Shown here in pieces: positions 9,014 through 55,589 of a stretch of 64,000 bases of DNA. The DNA is from Rhodospirillaceae bacterium (GTDB taxonomy: Bacteria; Pseudomonadota; Alphaproteobacteria; UBA6615): NCBI GenBank assembly GCA_002713365.1, contig PASR01000010.1, positions 13,719 to 77,718 of the forward strand. Reading direction: 5' to 3'. The stretch's first letter is position 1; every line of letters begins with the position of its first letter. A program made the translations under genes and the position numbers. The notes under the pieces are model-generated. The model made no database searches, had not been told where the DNA came from, and was given only the letters and a program-made list of their open reading frames with translations.

Positions 9014-10846
9014 ATGGATCTAAGAAATTGGCAACAAAAAATAATCGATACCTTTCCATTGATTATTAAGCAGCACCGAAGGTTTATTTTGAAAGCTCCA
9101 ACAGGAGCCGGAAAGACCGTTTTAGCTAGTGAAATAATTGAAAAATTTTATAAAGGTAAAAAAATAATCGTACTTTGCCACAGACTGGTGTTATTGGAAC
9201 AGCTTGAAAAAGCCCTTAGCAAAAAACATAAAGTCAGAAAACTAGCTGTTTCCGAGACCGGTTCAGCTTTCAAAAATTATGATATATTGCTTTCAACCAA
9301 TATAAGAGCAAAAGATGTATTAACCGATGCTGTCCCTAAAGCGGACCTCATAATAATAGATGAAGCACATAGGGTTTCACCAAATGGAAGGGGTTATAAA
9401 AGAATAATAAGTGATTTTGATAAACGTGGAAAGGACGAGGCTAGGTTTATGGGACTCACTGCTTCGCCAGAGCGACGCACAGGTGATCAGCGTGATCAAC
9501 TCAGTTTAGCATTCGAAACAATCATAGATTGCGCAAATATTGAGGACCTTATTGATGAAGGTGTTCTCGTAAAGCCTATTTATCGGTCGCATTTCGTACA
9601 TGATTTGGTACTGAGCGACCTTGATATCAGTTCGGGTGATTTTCCCGTAGCAAAATTATCTCCAGCCATTATAAAATCATCAATGATAGACTACGCTCTA
9701 TGGAGCTATGGTGAAGAAAGAGTCAAGCTTAAAACCAAACCTATATCTGCGTGGTTTTGCGCAGATATATCCGTAGCAGAAGCAACTTTGGAAAATATTC
9801 GCAGCCTTGGTATTGAGGCAGCCATCGTTACAGCCAAAACTCCTATTAATGAGAGAATGAAACTATTAGCACTCCATGAATCCGGAGAAATAGAAGCAAT
9901 GGTCTCAGTTGGTGTTCTGGCCGAAGGTTGGGACAATCCATATTGTAATATTATTGTTCACCTTCGCCCTACGCTCTCTAAAGTTTTATGGGGTCAGTCG
10001 GTGGGACGGGGATTACGGTCAGCTCCCGGAAAAGAAACCTGCGTTATCATCGACGTAAGTTCTAACTGGAGTACGTTTGGACCGGTTGAAAAACTTGAAT
10101 GGAGCCTTTGGAGTCATAGGCGTTCATATATGCAATTTATGAACAGGTTTAATTGGATAGGAAAACAACAAGAAGACGAAGGTGCTGATACTGTGTATCT
10201 GCTCTGTAAAAACGAACTTCCTAACAAGCTAAGATGTTCTAATATCTATAAAAAAGATACTTATGAAGACGATACTTGTCCAATCTGTGGTTCTTATGCA
10301 GCTGTAGATATCTATAAAGATCAAAAGCTAGACCATGGATTAAATGAACATGGTTTACATAAATTATTTTTTGATCGCGTGCCTAAAGTTTTTGAAGAGA
10401 TGGATCTATCAATATGGCAGAGTCTCGGTAATACGGCATGGAAAAACTCGAACGAAAAAGAACAGATTTTTCTAGCTTTTTGTATGGCATTCCAAGAGGT
10501 TTCGGGGGACCCTACTCAAACGGAGAGCGACTACTGGGATGTCGCCTTAGCTGCAGAAGCAAGTATCCGAACCTACTTAGTAAAAAAGAGCATTCAAATT
10601 GTAAAACAACATGACTTTAACCTTTCTTATCTTGCTGATGGAATGCTTGTAGGTAAAGAGATACGGACACTCCAAGCACATTATGGCATCTCACTCTGTG
10701 GGACAGTTTTTTCTACACATTCATTAGATGAAAATGAACGTAAGTATCAAAAGGCCATTAGAATAGCTGAAAGACTTGCAGTAATTGGCTGTTCAGCGTC
10801 CGATAACTTGCCTTACTTTAAAGCAGCTGACCATTTGCCTAGATAG
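9014..10846 (+). CDS. RadD-like superfamily 2 helicase
   Basis: This SF2 DEAH-box ATPase resembles RadD (YejH), a factor in double-strand break repair. Motif I APTGAGKT lies at residues 28-35, motif II DEAH at 116-119, motif III LTAS near 153, and motif VI QSVGRGLR near 330. After the helicase core, four cysteines (LLCKN, RCSN, CPICG; about residues 396-432) form a probable zinc finger as in RadD. The 610 residues are close to the family length. The C-terminal 170 residues are helical and unassigned. It is flanked by its own upstream gap and is convergent with the CNNM-type gene, and appears unrelated to the catabolic genes nearby. Confidence 0.82.
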   Translation: MDLRNWQQKIIDTFPLIIKQHRRFILKAPTGAGKTVLASEIIEKFYKGKKIIVLCHRLVLLEQLEKALSKKHKVRKLAVSETGSAFKNYDILLSTNIRAKDVLTDAVPKADLIIIDEAHRVSPNGRGYKRIISDFDKRGKDEARFMGLTASPERRTGDQRDQLSLAFETIIDCANIEDLIDEGVLVKPIYRSHFVHDLVLSDLDISSGDFPVAKLSPAIIKSSMIDYALWSYGEERVKLKTKPISAWFCADISVAEATLENIRSLGIEAAIVTAKTPINERMKLLALHESGEIEAMVSVGVLAEGWDNPYCNIIVHLRPTLSKVLWGQSVGRGLRSAPGKETCVIIDVSSNWSTFGPVEKLEWSLWSHRRSYMQFMNRFNWIGKQQEDEGADTVYLLCKNELPNKLRCSNIYKKDTYEDDTCPICGSYAAVDIYKDQKLDHGLNEHGLHKLFFDRVPKVFEEMDLSIWQSLGNTAWKNSNEKEQIFLAFCMAFQEVSGDPTQTESDYWDVALAAEASIRTYLVKKSIQIVKQHDFNLSYLADGMLVGKEIRTLQAHYGISLCGTVFSTHSLDENERKYQKAIRIAERLAVIGCSASDNLPYFKAADHLPR

Positions 10847-10969
10847 AGCAAATAAAATTATTAGCCGTTTCGCGATAGTCGAAGTAACCTTAATAGCATA
10901 AATAAATTGGTTACGTATTACCGACAGCACTTAGTTAATTTTAAAAAAATAAATAATAAGCGAGTTATT

Positions 10970-12331
10970 TTATGTCTCATTAATTATGCTTTCAGGCTCT
11001 CCATCACCTTCACCGACTACAGATTCAGTTTCCGTCTTATCAATCCTTACACGTTCTGCTCTGCGCCCCTTCAAACTTTCAACCATAAATCGATATCCTT
11101 GATCCTCTACGGTGTCACCTTCCTCAGGAATTCGTCGTAATTTTCTCATCAGCAAACCAGAAACCGTGTGGGCCTTATACGAATCAGGAATGGAAAAATC
11201 AGTTAAGCGTTCTACATCCGCCAGTGATGCCAAACCATGCGCCATCCAATGATCGCCTTCTTCGGTAACAGGAAACACCTGCTCCGTCACATCAGTTTCA
11301 TCAGCGATCTCACCCACAATTTCTTCTAATAAATCCTCTAGAGTTACGATACCGACGAATGAACCATATTCATCAATAATACAGGCCATGTGCGCTCTCT
11401 CCTGACGCATTTGATCGAATAATCTTGATACCTTTTGAGTTTCAGGAACAATCAAAGGTTCACGTAAATAGCTACTTAGGTCCTTCCATGGTTCTTGTTC
11501 TCCCTCAAGTAAAGCCCTCGTCAAATCTACCATCAAAACAACACCCAGTAGATCTTCGTTTTGTCCTTCAACCAGAGGGTAACGAGAATGACCTTTTTCT
11601 CGCATGACTTGCAGATTAGTCTTAACAGGAGCATCCGCTCGCAAGACATCCGATTCGATCCTAGGAATCATAACGCTGGCAACTGACCGCTCATCAAACT
11701 CAAATACATTTTGAATCATCTCTGCCGTATCACTTTGCATTTTTCCATGTTCGGTTGACACATCTACCAGTGTCCGGATTTCATCATCAGATAGAATCTC
11801 CATATGTCCTTCCTCGGATATACCCATAAGGACTAAAATTGCCCTAGAGGCCTTATTCAGGACCCAGGTAAGTGGAAAAAACAGCCAATAAGAAAACTGT
11901 AATGGATAAGCAATTAATAATGATACTGGTTCGGCTTTGCGAATTGCCCAAGTCTTAGGAACCTGTTCACCTATAACAATATGAAACGAGGAAAACGTCA
12001 AAAAACCTATAAGGAAAGAAATCGAATGAAGTGTTTCATCACTTAAACCCATTGGGGCTAATAAGGGTTCAAGTAATGCAGCTACTGTTGGTTCACCAAC
12101 CCAACCCAAACCCAGAGAAGCCATCGTTATTCCTAACTGACAGTTAGCTAGATAGCCGTCTATGTGTTTTATCATGTGAAGACTAATCTTAGCTGCACCA
12201 CCTCTAGTTTCCGCTAAATTTTCAATACGAAAACCTTTGGCTTTTACAAGCGCAAACTCAGCTGCAACATAAAATCCGTTCGCTACAAGCAGCAAAAAAG
12301 CTACAAATAAATTAGCCCCCGCACTTTCCAT
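10970..12331 (-). CDS. CNNM/CorC-type membrane protein with CBS pair
   Basis: The protein has a DUF21/CNNM transmembrane domain at about residues 1-190 with three to four helices, and a CBS domain pair at about 205-330 (MIPRIESDV, SRYPLVEG, IIDEYGSFVGIVTLEDLLEE). It ends with a CorC_HlyC domain at about 345-430. Such proteins act in magnesium or cobalt efflux or homeostasis; older annotations call them hemolysin-like (TlyC). The 453 residues are normal. The last 20 residues are acidic. It appears monocistronic, between convergent and divergent neighbours; the 283-base gap on its right is AT-rich and has only weak AT-only repeats. Confidence 0.88.
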   Translation of the reverse strand: MESAGANLFVAFLLLVANGFYVAAEFALVKAKGFRIENLAETRGGAAKISLHMIKHIDGYLANCQLGITMASLGLGWVGEPTVAALLEPLLAPMGLSDETLHSISFLIGFLTFSSFHIVIGEQVPKTWAIRKAEPVSLLIAYPLQFSYWLFFPLTWVLNKASRAILVLMGISEEGHMEILSDDEIRTLVDVSTEHGKMQSDTAEMIQNVFEFDERSVASVMIPRIESDVLRADAPVKTNLQVMREKGHSRYPLVEGQNEDLLGVVLMVDLTRALLEGEQEPWKDLSSYLREPLIVPETQKVSRLFDQMRQERAHMACIIDEYGSFVGIVTLEDLLEEIVGEIADETDVTEQVFPVTEEGDHWMAHGLASLADVERLTDFSIPDSYKAHTVSGLLMRKLRRIPEEGDTVEDQGYRFMVESLKGRRAERVRIDKTETESVVGEGDGEPESIINET

Positions 12332-12614
12332 AATTTTTTATAATCCTCATATAATTAATATTCATAAGCATGCAAAAGCTTTACCCATGAAGCAAGCTTT
12401 ACGTAAAATAAAATATTGAACTAAATAGAAATTAGACCTTACCTTATAACTACATTATAAAATTTTAATGGCTATAATTTTATATAACCTCTTGTTGAAA
12501 AAGTAATATACACTAGGTCTTTATTAGTTTTAATAGGTTTTTATCATTTAAATAAATTAAAATAAGCAGTCAATTTGTCATTTGAACATAATAAACAAAT
12601 TCCGGAGAAAATCC

Positions 12615-13883
12615 ATGAGCGTAAAAGCATCTGATAAAACAAAGGTTACTCCACCGGCAGTCATGTTTAGCCACTTTGGAATTAATTGTGATAATGCAGA
12701 TAAACTAGAGGATTTCTATACAAGAGTTCTTGGCTTTTGCGTGAGCGATCATGGACTTTTTCGTGATGATACTGATCGAATAATATTCATGACACGTAGG
12801 CCGCGAGAACACCATCAATTTGTGCTAGCAGCTGGGCGACCTGCAAAATATGATTCTACCGTCGGTGAAACAGGTTTCACGGCTAATAGCCTTAATGATT
12901 TACGTTACGCCGAAAAAATTCTTAGAGCTGAAGATGAAGCTAACGATATCATTTGTGTCGATCATGGCATTTCATGGACACTTTATTTTCGTGACCCCGA
13001 GGGAAACAGATGTTCTATATCAGTAGAAACTGAACATTATGTGCCACAACCGGCCATCTGGCCCCTCGACCTAAAAGATACAGACCAAGAAATCATTCTT
13101 CAAAATAAAGAGCGTTGCCAATCAACAATAGGCTACATGACCAAATCTAATTGGTCCTTAGAGAAGAAAAAAATATACTCCAAAGAAAACCGTTTAACTA
13201 ACGAAGGTCCTGAGACCGGAAATGCCAATCCTGATTTTGAGCGCCCTAGTTCTAACCGTAAACTTTTACACTCAGTCAAAAACAACATGAAACCGCCTTT
13301 GATAGCGCAATCACATTGCGGCTTTAAGGTTAAGGATATGGATATGATGATTGAGTTCTATGATACAATCTTAGGATATGCCGTTACAGATCGTGGGATA
13401 ATGCCTGAGATGGGGGATGAACCAAAATGCGAATACGCCTATCTCAGCCGCGATCCTTATGAACATCATCAACTAATCCTAATCTCAGGTAGAGACATGA
13501 ATGCGCCCACCAGCGTTAATCAACTGAGTCTACGTATACTATCGCTTGATGAACTGCGTCGAATGGAGAATGAACTAGAATGTCATCCAGCCGTAGGAAA
13601 GCTCAGAAATACATGCCACGGAAACTCTTTTTCAATTTATTTTCCTGATCCAGAAGGTAATATTGTTGAGTTGGCGGTTGAATCAGTTTGGTACGTGCCA
13701 GCTCCACATGGTGCACCCCTAGATTTATCATGGAGCAATCAAAAGCTTCTGGATTGGGCCGAGGATCATTGTCACAATACAGATGGGTTTATGATGAGAG
13801 CTGACTGGAAGATTCAGGCTAGGAAAGAGCTTATTGCTAATGGACATCTTGAAGCAGAAACTACCTCTAATAACATTAGCTAG
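12615..13883 (+). CDS. tandem VOC-domain protein (extradiol dioxygenase-like fold)
   Basis: Two vicinal-oxygen-chelate domains lie in one chain. The first (about residues 14-140) has SHFGINC, EHHQFVLA and DPEGNRCSISVE; the second (about 230-375) has SHCGFKV, EHHQLILI and DPEGNIVELAVE. Each retains the His/His/Glu pattern of metal ligands. Each domain ends with a similar tail (HYVPQP or WYVPAP followed by LDL), so the gene arose by internal duplication. GGAG sits 7 bases before the ATG at 12615; an ATG at 12582 lacks a ribosome site. It precedes the FMN oxidase by 35 bases and is probably cotranscribed. A ring-cleaving or related metal-dependent activity is likely; the substrate is unknown. 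Confidence 0.85.
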   Translation: MSVKASDKTKVTPPAVMFSHFGINCDNADKLEDFYTRVLGFCVSDHGLFRDDTDRIIFMTRRPREHHQFVLAAGRPAKYDSTVGETGFTANSLNDLRYAEKILRAEDEANDIICVDHGISWTLYFRDPEGNRCSISVETEHYVPQPAIWPLDLKDTDQEIILQNKERCQSTIGYMTKSNWSLEKKKIYSKENRLTNEGPETGNANPDFERPSSNRKLLHSVKNNMKPPLIAQSHCGFKVKDMDMMIEFYDTILGYAVTDRGIMPEMGDEPKCEYAYLSRDPYEHHQLILISGRDMNAPTSVNQLSLRILSLDELRRMENELECHPAVGKLRNTCHGNSFSIYFPDPEGNIVELAVESVWYVPAPHGAPLDLSWSNQKLLDWAEDHCHNTDGFMMRADWKIQARKELIANGHLEAETTSNNIS

Positions 13884-45478: not shown

Positions 45479-46573
45479 ATGTCCAGAACTGAATCTGTCT
45501 CTTCTGAGTTCCCCATAGATAAAAATGCTCAGCGGATACCATATAATCAATTAAAAGATTATATGAGTCGAGTTTTTTTAGCTGTAGGGCTTCCAAAGAA
45601 TGATGCGGAAGAGCTGGCCATAGCTATGGCCGATGGAGATTTATTAGGTAAAGATAGTCATGGTTGTATCCGCGTTCCTATGTACGTAGCTCGTATAAAA
45701 GGAGGGGCAATCAACAAAACACCTAATATCCGAATAGAAAAGCAAACACCAGCAATGGCTATAGTTAATGGCGATAATGCAATGGGACACCTAGTAGCTA
45801 GATACTCAATGAATCTAGCAATGGACATTGCATCAAAAAGTGGAATTGCTTGGATTGGCTTACAGCACTCTAATCATGCTGGTGCAGCAGCCGTCTATGC
45901 ATCTATGGCATTAAAACGAGACCAAATTGGTATAATTGCTTGCGTAGGCAGCGCCAATCACGCAGCGCCATATGGAGGTAGTGATATTTTGGTGGGAACT
46001 AACCCAATAGCTGTCGCTATTCCAGCTCTTAAAGAACCTTCAGTAGTAATTGATATGGCAACTACCAATTCTTCCCTAGGAAAAATAATGGTTAAAGCAA
46101 TGCATGGCGAAGCAATGCCAGAAGGCTGGGTGATGGATGCTGCTGGTAAACCAATAACTGACTCCGCACTAGCCGATGAGGGTATCCTAACTCACATTGG
46201 AGGTGCTAAGGGTTTTGGTTTATCAATGGTAATAGGGTTTTTAGCAGGAACCTTGAATGGCGCAGCTTTTGGATCCGATGTAGTCCATATTGGCGAAGAC
46301 CCAAAAAGCGAAACAAATACAGGACAATTCATAATGGCGATAGATATCGCTCATTTTATGGACACGGAGCTATTCAAAGCTAATGTAGATCGTATTTCAA
46401 AAGAAATGACCGGTTCAGCTATGCTTCCTGGAGTTGATGAAATCCGTATGCCCGGAACTAATAGTTGGCGCGTTTATCAAGACCGCATGTCCAATGGCAT
46501 ACCAATTACGGCTCCACTATTAAAAAAACTTAATGAAACCGCTCATGAAGTCGGCGTACCTGCACTAATATAA
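45479..46573 (+). CDS. Ldh-family (malate/L-sulfolactate-type) dehydrogenase
   Basis: The protein belongs to the NAD(P)-dependent Ldh/AllD/ComC family: SHGCIRVPMYV near residue 60, LQHSNHAGAAAVYASMA near 128 with the catalytic His, GTNPIAVAIPA near 178, and GAKGFGLSMVIGFLAG near 240. The 364 residues are normal. Family members oxidise 2-hydroxyacids such as ureidoglycolate, malate or sulfolactate. AGGAGG is close to the ATG. It precedes an amidase by 13 bases, so the two probably form one operon. Confidence 0.9.
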   Translation: MSRTESVSSEFPIDKNAQRIPYNQLKDYMSRVFLAVGLPKNDAEELAIAMADGDLLGKDSHGCIRVPMYVARIKGGAINKTPNIRIEKQTPAMAIVNGDNAMGHLVARYSMNLAMDIASKSGIAWIGLQHSNHAGAAAVYASMALKRDQIGIIACVGSANHAAPYGGSDILVGTNPIAVAIPALKEPSVVIDMATTNSSLGKIMVKAMHGEAMPEGWVMDAAGKPITDSALADEGILTHIGGAKGFGLSMVIGFLAGTLNGAAFGSDVVHIGEDPKSETNTGQFIMAIDIAHFMDTELFKANVDRISKEMTGSAMLPGVDEIRMPGTNSWRVYQDRMSNGIPITAPLLKKLNETAHEVGVPALI

Positions 46574-48994: not shown

Positions 48995-50065
48995 ATGCAA
49001 AGAGAACATCTAGGGGTTGCAGTCATCGGTTGTGGACGCATAGGTACTTTGCGAGCGAGCTTAGCTTCACGATACCCAGGAGTGAACTTCCTCGCGGTGT
49101 CTGACAAAGATAAACATCGCGCCGATATCTTATCACAGCGCACCGGCGCTAACCTTAGCACAGATAACAACCTAGAGGCGATAAATCATCCAAACGTTAA
49201 TACCGTTATTGTTTCAACACCAGAACATGACCATAGAGACGCAATTGTACAGGCGCTCGAAGCTGGAAAGCCCGTTCTTATTGAGAAACCAATTGCACTT
49301 ACTCTAGAAGACGCCGATGCCATTATTGAAACAGCTCAAAATACAGGCACTGAATTTCGCGTTGGGTATTCACGTCGTCATGAAAGACGATGGATGCTAG
49401 CTAAAGAACAACTATTACAAGGTCGTTTAGGAGAAGTATTAGGTATTCAATCTCGGGTCTATAACTCAAGAGCTCAAATGCTACAGATACTCGAGCGGTC
49501 TCCAAAAGCTACACCAGTTTTAGACGTACTCACCTATTATGTTGATATGGCTTGCTGGTATCTTGAAGGCATTCGCCCGGTAGAAGTCATTGCGCGTTCT
49601 CATGGCAAAGTATTTTCTAATATGGGCTACGATGTTGATGATATTACTTGGGCAATCATAACCTTTGAAAACGGCGCTATTGTTAATCTGGGGATTTGTT
49701 ATGCGCTACCAGCAAAATACCCATCGGTTGGACAAAGCTCGCGCTTTGAAGTTTTAGGTGATGAAGGCGTAATCCTGCTTGATGCAGATAATAAAGATAG
49801 CCTATTATATACTGACAACGGAGCACCACATACCTACGTACCCGACCATAATATCAATCTTATGTTTATGCAGACAACATCGGCAGCTGATTTTGCTGTA
49901 GGTGATTTTTGGGGTGCCTTGGCGAATGAATCACGTTCCTGGTTTGACCATCTCATTACCGGAAATGAAATCCCTCATGCCACTCCTACTGAAGCACGTC
50001 TTACACTTGAGGTTACACTAGCTATAGAAGAATCAGCTAAAACCGGACAACCTGTTTCCCTCTAA
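48995..50065 (+). CDS. Gfo/Idh/MocA family oxidoreductase (second of three)
   Basis: The 356-residue protein has AVIGCGRIGTLRASL at the N-terminus and IEKPIALTLEDAD near residue 95. AGGAGG precedes the ATG. It has the same C-terminal pattern as the copies at 20088 and 51750 (NESRSWF...PHATPTEARLTLEV, in parts). It is divergent from the TRAP-like gene and is followed by a GMC oxidoreductase after 43 bases. Substrates of the family include sugars, inositols and sugar acids. Confidence 0.9.
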   Translation: MQREHLGVAVIGCGRIGTLRASLASRYPGVNFLAVSDKDKHRADILSQRTGANLSTDNNLEAINHPNVNTVIVSTPEHDHRDAIVQALEAGKPVLIEKPIALTLEDADAIIETAQNTGTEFRVGYSRRHERRWMLAKEQLLQGRLGEVLGIQSRVYNSRAQMLQILERSPKATPVLDVLTYYVDMACWYLEGIRPVEVIARSHGKVFSNMGYDVDDITWAIITFENGAIVNLGICYALPAKYPSVGQSSRFEVLGDEGVILLDADNKDSLLYTDNGAPHTYVPDHNINLMFMQTTSAADFAVGDFWGALANESRSWFDHLITGNEIPHATPTEARLTLEVTLAIEESAKTGQPVSL

Positions 50066-50108
50066 GATAATTAACAATTTAAAAAATTTCTATTAGGAGT
50101 TACCTCCA

Positions 50109-51716
50109 CTGAAAAAGAATATCAATAAATTTAGTTATATTATTGTTGGAGCAGGCAGTGCCGGTTGTGTCCTAGCTAATCGGCTGTCCTCCTCTAAGCA
50201 CAATCGTGTGTTACTGCTAGAGGCCGGTGGAGACGATAATAGTCCCTGGATTCATATTCCTCTGGGTTATGGAAAACATTTTACGAATCCCAAAGTAAAT
50301 TGGCTTTATAAAAATGAACCTGACTCGGAAACAGCATATAGAAAAATTGCGCAACCTCGTGGAAAAGTAATCGGAGGTTCTAGCTCAATTAATGGCCTAG
50401 TATATATTCGTGGCCAGCGAGAGGATTATGATCATTGGCGCCAATTAGGAAATGTAGGTTGGAGCTATCAAGATGTACTTCCATATTTTCGTAAATCAGA
50501 AGATCAGCAAAATGGTGCAGATGAATACCATGGAGTTGGTGGACCTTTAGCGGTCTCAAATCCAAGCGATCCCCACCCTTTATGTGAAGCATTTATTGAG
50601 GCAGCAGTGCAATCAGGATATCCACGTACTAAGGATTTTAATGGGTTAAATCATGAGGGTTTTGGATATTTGCAGTTAACCACCCGTAATGGGCGTCGAT
50701 CAAGCACATCAACTGGTTATTTAAAGGGCGCAAAGAAACGAAAAAATTTATTTGTAATCAAGAATGCTCATGCCACCCGTATTTTATTTGAAGGGTCTAA
50801 AGCATTGGGCATAGAGTACCTACACAATGGAAAAAAACACCTAGCCAAAGCAAATCATGAAGTGATTTTATCGAGTGGAGCTATAAATACCCCACAAATA
50901 ATGATGCTCTCTGGTTTAGGGGAATCCACAGAACTAAAAAAACACGGGATAGAAGTAGTAGCCAATATCCCGGAAGTTGGATGTAATTTACAAGATCATT
51001 ATAATGGAAGATTAATGTATCGAAGTAATGAACCCTTTACTCTAAATGACATACTAAATAGTAGATTACTGAGTGTTTACGAAGGATTGCGTTATATCTT
51101 CAAACGCAAAGGATTCCTAACTATGGGAGCATCATATGCTGCAGGTTTTTTTCGTACGGACCCAGCATTAGCTTCACCTGACATTCAAGCCGGTTTAGCT
51201 TTGTTTAGTACAGATAAAGTAGGAGAGGGCCTTCACCCATTTTCTGGTTTTTCCGTAATAGTAAGGCTTTTACGTCCAGAAAGCAGAGGAAATGTTTTTC
51301 TCAAAGGAAATAACCCACTAGACGCTCCAGCGATACACCCAAATTTTCTTCACAGCAAAAATGATCAAGACAACCTAGTAGCTGGTTTTAAGGCCATGCG
51401 TGAAGTCTTAAAATCACCAGCAATAAACAAATTTATTCAAAGTGAATATGCACCCGGGGAATCAACAGCAAGTGATTCAGAACTTTTAGAGTTTTTAAGA
51501 CAAAAAGGAGGTACAAGTTTTCATCCGGTGGGAACCTGTCGCATGGGCATCGACAATAAAGCAGTTGTTGATTCCCGACTTCGTGTAAATGGCATTAAAA
51601 ACTTGCGTGTTGTCGATGCCTCAATTATGCCAACTATTGTATCTGGAAATACTAACGCTCCAACTATTATGATAGCTGAAAAAGCTTCTGATATGATTTT
51701 AGAAGACTTAAAATAA
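50109..51716 (+). CDS. GMC-family FAD oxidoreductase with apparent CTG start
   Basis: The family FAD motif GAGSAGCVLANRL (from residue 14), HxxxP-like FHPVGTCRMG near residue 470, and NTNAPTIMIAEKA at the C-terminus identify a choline-dehydrogenase-like enzyme. The frame is open from a stop at 50094 through the FAD motif, but has no ATG, GTG or TTG until GTG 50208, which would remove the FAD motif. CTG at 50109, 9 bases after AGGAG, is the best start and gives 535 residues. It lies between two Gfo/Idh genes, so the three may oxidise related alcohols or sugars. Confidence 0.87.
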   Translation: MKKNINKFSYIIVGAGSAGCVLANRLSSSKHNRVLLLEAGGDDNSPWIHIPLGYGKHFTNPKVNWLYKNEPDSETAYRKIAQPRGKVIGGSSSINGLVYIRGQREDYDHWRQLGNVGWSYQDVLPYFRKSEDQQNGADEYHGVGGPLAVSNPSDPHPLCEAFIEAAVQSGYPRTKDFNGLNHEGFGYLQLTTRNGRRSSTSTGYLKGAKKRKNLFVIKNAHATRILFEGSKALGIEYLHNGKKHLAKANHEVILSSGAINTPQIMMLSGLGESTELKKHGIEVVANIPEVGCNLQDHYNGRLMYRSNEPFTLNDILNSRLLSVYEGLRYIFKRKGFLTMGASYAAGFFRTDPALASPDIQAGLALFSTDKVGEGLHPFSGFSVIVRLLRPESRGNVFLKGNNPLDAPAIHPNFLHSKNDQDNLVAGFKAMREVLKSPAINKFIQSEYAPGESTASDSELLEFLRQKGGTSFHPVGTCRMGIDNKAVVDSRLRVNGIKNLRVVDASIMPTIVSGNTNAPTIMIAEKASDMILEDLK

Positions 51717-51749: not shown

Positions 51750-52781
51750 GTGTCGTATAAAAGAATTAATGTTGCAGTCATTGGTGCTGGTTGGGTTGGT
51801 GGAATTCGTATAAATGCCTGTGCTAGCTCTCCATTAGTTAATGAATTACATATCGCAGAAATAAACCCAGATAGAACAAAAAAAATTGCTGATAACTGTA
51901 ATGCAACTAGTTTTACTACTAATTGGAAAAACTTGATTGATAATGAATCTATCGATGCAATTATAATAGCCTCTACTCCAGAATCGGAGCGCTTTCCAAT
52001 AGTACGAGCTGCACTAAAAGCCAAGAAACACGTAATGATTGAAAAGCCTATAGCTCCAACATTAAGGGAAGCCGATGAAGCAATAAAACTTATAGAAGTT
52101 AATAACCTTAAATTTACGATAGGGTATACAAGGCGGTTTGATCCCAAATACGCCTTCATCAATAAAAGCTTAAAATCTGGTAAATTAGGTCAACCTGTCA
52201 CTTGCCTTATAAGCCGTAATATAACTCGTGAAATAGGAAATAAAATAAAAAGTCGTAGTAAAATGTCACCTGCTGCTATGGGTGGTACACATTCAATTGA
52301 CTTTCTTCTTTGGTGTTTACAGCCGCGTCTTCCGGTAAAGGTTTATTCCCAACAAGCAGGAAAACTATTTAATAAAATTAGTGAAACCCCCGACCATCAA
52401 TGGATAATAGTTACGATGGATGACGGAACGACAATAACCGCCGGATCTGGTTGGGTTTTGCCTTTGGGCCACCCACAGTATTCACAAAGCTGGATTGAAG
52501 TGATTGGGACCGAAGGATCACTTACAGTCGATGACACTCATAGAGAAGTGAGTATAAATACGACAAAACATGGAATTCGTTACCCTTTATCCTCTATGCC
52601 TGGTGAACAAGTAGATCACGTATTTGCCGGAGCCATGGTAGATGAAACACTTCATTTTCTTGATGCCGTAGCCAATGACAACCCTGTATTAGCAACAGCT
52701 CAAGAAGCACGACTAGTGATGGAAGTTACTATAGCGGCAGATCTATCCGCAAAAAGAGGAGAAGCTATTTATCTAAATTAG
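51750..52781 (+). CDS. Gfo/Idh/MocA family oxidoreductase (third of three)
   Basis: The Rossmann motif AVIGAGWVGGIRIN, EKPIAPTLREADEA near residue 95 and the late EARLVMEVTIAADLSAKRGE identify the family. GGAGG lies 5 bases before the GTG at 51750, giving 343 residues; GTG 51738 is also possible but lies before the ribosome site. It follows the GMC gene by 33 bases. It resembles the other two Gfo/Idh enzymes of the window at both ends, though the middle differs. Confidence 0.9.
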   Translation: MSYKRINVAVIGAGWVGGIRINACASSPLVNELHIAEINPDRTKKIADNCNATSFTTNWKNLIDNESIDAIIIASTPESERFPIVRAALKAKKHVMIEKPIAPTLREADEAIKLIEVNNLKFTIGYTRRFDPKYAFINKSLKSGKLGQPVTCLISRNITREIGNKIKSRSKMSPAAMGGTHSIDFLLWCLQPRLPVKVYSQQAGKLFNKISETPDHQWIIVTMDDGTTITAGSGWVLPLGHPQYSQSWIEVIGTEGSLTVDDTHREVSINTTKHGIRYPLSSMPGEQVDHVFAGAMVDETLHFLDAVANDNPVLATAQEARLVMEVTIAADLSAKRGEAIYLN

Positions 52782-54049: not shown

Positions 54050-54167
54050 GGCAACGACATAAAATTTAATTATAAAAATATAAATTAATCGCATTATTAC
54101 TACTAAAAACAAAATTATTTTTAAAAACCTAAAACTAATAGTATAAAAGTATTTTGTGGAGATGGGT

Positions 54168-55569: not shown

Positions 55570-55589
55570 GCTTAAAACTGGATTATTTA

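Follow-up and report, generated by a model that had tools for sequence, protein, structure and literature searches.

Initiation at CTG is rare in bacteria but already known. The account of the FIB plasmids in PMC11983097 describes a rep gene that starts at CTG, as proven by N-terminal analysis and mutation, while most FIB records put the start at a GTG 14 codons downstream; the same source gives CTG as the annotated start in 20 of nearly 85,000 genes of model genomes. Reconstructed switches from AUG to CUG are given as very rare, 2 in 61,358, in PMC5622118, and PMC11497404 offers weak pairing at the first position as a possible reason why CUG is uncommon. In Caulobacter dnaA, a CUG with a Shine-Dalgarno sequence (SD) is described as unused in vivo (PMC8443254). 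At the corresponding rate of 0.024%, and with about 2,400 genes per genome assumed, approximately 0.6 CTG-started genes would be expected per genome, so that a single case is unsurprising.

Here we describe a GMC oxidoreductase gene that probably adds one more instance. Like rep of the FIB replicon of E. coli plasmids, it has a CTG with a good ribosome-binding site and a downstream GTG of the kind often recorded as the start; rep, as described, is a plasmid replication gene with an experimentally proven CTG, whereas the present gene is a chromosomal enzyme gene whose CTG start is predicted from the sequence (PMC11983097). It also resembles Caulobacter dnaA in having an in-frame CUG with an SD upstream. 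The dnaA gene, however, has an AUG downstream of that codon, according to PMC8443254, whereas the GMC gene has no canonical start before its conserved domain. If confirmed, the case would extend the few CTG starts known in bacteria by a chromosomal gene of metabolism.

Proposed start codon of the GMC oxidoreductase gene

The gene lies in the window (the whole 64-kb stretch of DNA that was analyzed), which is part of contig C8; the genome consists of 19 contigs with 2,519,209 bases in total. Coordinates of the features discussed are collected in Table 1.

Table 1. Features of the GMC oxidoreductase locus (positions in the window)
Feature	Position	Strand	Details
Gfo/Idh/MocA-family oxidoreductase gene	48995..50065	+	immediately 5′ of the GMC gene
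In-frame TAG closing the frame upstream	50094..50096	+	
Shine-Dalgarno sequence AGGAG	50095..50099	+	spacing 9 to CTG
Possible hairpin GGAG-TTAC-CTCC	50096..50107	+	-4.7 kcal/mol; arm absent from two relatives
GMC oxidoreductase gene	50109..51716	+	535 codons; proposed start CTG 50109-50111; stop TAA 51714-51716
GAGSAG, FAD-binding loop (GxGxxG)	50148..50165	+	residues 14-19 counted from CTG; upstream of the first canonical start
GTG	50208..50210	+	earliest in-frame ATG/GTG/TTG; product of 502 residues without the FAD-binding loop
Second Gfo/Idh/MocA-family gene	51750..52781	+	immediately 3′ of the GMC gene; GTG start preceded by GGAGG

Analysis of the start region confirmed two statements of the initial annotation, namely that the frame is closed by a stop at 50094 and that the FAD-binding segment is in frame ahead of the first ATG, GTG or TTG. 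The segment contains the sequence GAGSAG, the FAD-binding GxGxxG loop. ATG is absent from positions 50066-50207 in every frame, and the triplets of the ATG/GTG/TTG set found there (at 50143, 50146, 50158, 50165 and 50167) are all out of frame. The gene thus has no ATG, GTG or TTG usable for its conserved domain. This is also an annotation issue: the mechanically made list of open reading frames begins the gene at GTG 50208 and loses GAGSAG, and a gene finder limited to the three canonical codons would begin the enzyme at the same place.

Seven in-frame codons between 50097 and 50207 differ from ATG by at most one base. Only CTG 50109 has an SD, as had been claimed: the match comprises five bases, while the six other near-cognate codons are without a match. 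Matches of at least five bases were found at 96 of the 1856 CTGs on both strands of the window. They were also found at 16 of the 39 window genes with a canonical start chosen by a script, a few of these automatically picked starts being doubtful (at 46569, for example, a GTG at codon 33 was taken despite ATG 46581). A search of the genome for the exact pattern of the 16S rRNA tail gave no match, and the SD is called here from its motif, the anti-SD being putative.

How exceptional the gene is in its surroundings was seen from a survey of 41 window ORFs of at least 200 codons that have a match of at least 55% identity in the stretches retrieved from two genomes of the same genus. Two of them were left by the script with no canonical start, the GMC gene and the ORF at 54147. 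The latter has GTG 54156 available in frame, so that the GMC gene is the sole real case among the 41.

The initial annotation had read CTG as the apparent start, and this reading was supported: no other candidate combines an SD and an uncut FAD-binding segment with agreement with the start position of relatives. We consider it likely that the gene is an intact and ordinary one whose translation starts at CTG 50109. AGGAG would pair with the 16S rRNA tail and so bring the CUG into the P site of the ribosome, and the initiator fMet-tRNA would read it there despite the mismatch in the first position. We infer that the protein would begin with Met-Lys-Lys-Asn and that its yield would be lower than from an AUG.

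Start positions in homologues

Comparison with the start regions of homologues gave the same location. The 116 loci examined yielded 115 matches, seven of them duplicates, and so 108 distinct loci, many of which come from related species and are not independent. In 104 of the 108 a canonical start is found 6-18 codons before GxGxxG, most commonly at a distance of 10 codons (37 loci); CTG 50109 is located 13 codons before the motif, a distance shared by 11 of the 104 homologues, whose starts span 7-18 codons. Four loci are without a canonical start in this range: the GMC gene itself, L070, L082 and a paralogue from the same genome (L005, contig C11, position 2395), in which the likely start codon reads ATN.

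The genus search covered three genomes, the own one and those of two relatives, with proteins approximately 70% identical. The two orthologues (69.7% and 67.6% identity) both start with ATG one codon downstream of the CTG position, behind TTAGGA; this sequence is 12 bases before their ATG, and TTAGGAG is 10 bases before CTG in the gene under study. The use of ATG by both orthologues counts against CTG, as does the distribution of starts among the 104 homologues, which by the script's order of preference are 93 ATG, 9 GTG and 2 TTG. The rarity of AUG-to-CUG switches and the unused CUG of Caulobacter dnaA are further points against it.

These data could be explained by an assembly or consensus error, with ATG being present at 50109 in the true sequence or in most of the population and C being wrong. 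CTG and ATG are one base apart, and the assembly is not free of ambiguous positions: contig C8 includes 15 N, and the likely start codon of the paralogue reads ATN. The 15 N, however, are found at 9956-13718 and 87480-89498 of the contig, outside the window, which has none, and no other gene among the 41 examined in the window lacks a start. We regard an error as unlikely, although at a distance of a single base it remains a serious doubt.

Product and integrity of the gene

Profile searches identified both GMC domains in the protein, the N-terminal FAD-binding domain (PF00732, 187.2 bits, cut-off 23) and the C-terminal GMC domain (PF05199, 136.5 bits, cut-off 24.6). The score with NF002550, a choline dehydrogenase-like family, was 610.9 bits against a cut-off of 605, and the protein is like GMC oxidoreductases of this type in both domains, in the FAD motif and in the His/Asn pair. 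We also considered choline dehydrogenase BetA (TIGR01810). The protein scored 522.4 bits, below the equivalog cut-off of 732.1, and the assignment of choline as the substrate is therefore unsupported. The best solved relative by sequence is 8b7s_A (415 bits). His472 and Asn516, the pair of the GMC active site, are kept in all six aligned proteins. Among named genomes, the closest relatives of this protein come from Alphaproteobacteria, including ALOHA and MarineAlpha12 MAGs, and the host is likely a marine alphaproteobacterium, judging by these sequences.

The GMC gene is flanked by two Gfo/Idh/MocA-family genes (Table 1), and this order is common to all three genomes of the genus. A GMC paralogue, 61% identical, is located approximately 21 kb downstream, beyond the window (G000:C8:85007-86590, minus strand). 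Both same-genus genomes have a second GMC gene as well, approximately 16 kb away and encoded on the other strand, with an identity of about 59%.

A second possibility is that CTG is a recent start-loss allele, derived from an ancestral ATG, and that little or none of the enzyme is produced today. The relatives begin with ATG, and expression from CTG is predicted from the sequence only. The state of the gene speaks against this: its frame has no internal stops, the catalytic residues are retained and the SD is intact. Changes unique to the own copy and to the relative numbered 40/57, 38/66, 37/54, 39/61, 43/48 and 46/58 in six comparisons, the former being fewer in all six, so that the own copy is not changing faster than its relatives; the test is a rough one, its outgroups not being clearly outside the three genus genomes (own-L038 68.8%, own-G001 69.7%). 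The counts argue against an old pseudogene, but a very recent loss of the start would escape such tests of integrity. On balance, we find start loss unlikely.

Predicted pairing in the leader

The initial annotation had also noted that GGAG can pair with CTCC just before the CTG and that this could modulate initiation. The first part holds, since the hairpin is predicted (Table 1); the second is a prediction. GGAG followed after 3-8 bases by CTCC is present twice on the plus strand of the window, and 200 mononucleotide shuffles gave 2.2 on average, which is the frequency of chance. The fold of the 80-base leader is unremarkable (z = -1.26; 22 of 200 shuffled leaders fold as well). Within a 100-base fold the SD is predicted to be 12% unpaired, the second lowest value among 25 window genes; this speaks for a regulatory hairpin, and the mostly paired state counts against the use of CTG. 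The SD sequences of the two relatives are predicted to be 18% and 24% unpaired with different pairing partners, the CTCC arm being missing there. A paired SD may therefore be a frequent feature of such leaders, as far as the folding models indicate, and the GGAG-TTAC-CTCC hairpin is not conserved.

With the arms at chance frequency, an unremarkable leader fold and other partners in the two relatives, we discarded the idea that a regulatory hairpin is the central feature of the locus. It is improbable that CTG together with a hairpin hiding the SD forms a selected throttle on the oxidoreductase, gained in this species after the split from the ATG-starting relatives.

Initiation at another in-frame codon (AAG 50115, ATC 50121, ATT 50139 or 50142, or GTG 50208) is very improbable, even though ATT is a known rare start codon (infC), as the near-cognates are all without an SD match, the two ATTs stand directly before the FAD-binding loop and the GTG removes it.

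Other observations on contig C8

Contig C8 was compared, ORF by ORF, with stretches of the two same-genus genomes, and 18 ORFs were then viewed singly, many flagged ones that were short or overlapped long ORFs of the opposite strand having been set aside. A lineage habit of CTG starts was rejected: among these 18, besides the GMC gene, homology ahead of the first canonical start was due to alignment overrun, a distant match of 40% or an in-frame TGA. A second CTG start on contig C8 may exist among the flagged ORFs that were set aside. At 55578 the own sequence has CTG where both same-genus relatives have TTG; TTG 55590, which follows, is common to all three, and the CTG is therefore not needed there; either codon may start the gene.

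Two genes with an in-frame TGA were found on contig C8 beyond the window. One is a DsbA-family gene approximately 6 kb past the window end (L121:3696-4331, minus strand; PF01323, 122.8 bits), in which the TGA opens a CPWC-like motif (DYV-U-PWCY). The other is a carboxymuconolactone-decarboxylase-like frame with HCSY-U-GNV (L121:9531-9929, minus strand), which is truncated where the contig ends and itself gave no Pfam match; its relative in the same-genus genome G002, which carries two copies of such a gene, matches carboxymuconolactone decarboxylase (PF02627, 31.2 bits, cut-off 23). The TGA of both frames is also found in both same-genus genomes. AhpD and DsbA are mentioned in part of the literature on prokaryotic selenoproteomes. 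SelB (475.2 bits, cut-off 242.25) and tRNA-Sec (67.8 bits, cut-off 47) were detected in the genome, and both genes probably encode selenoproteins.
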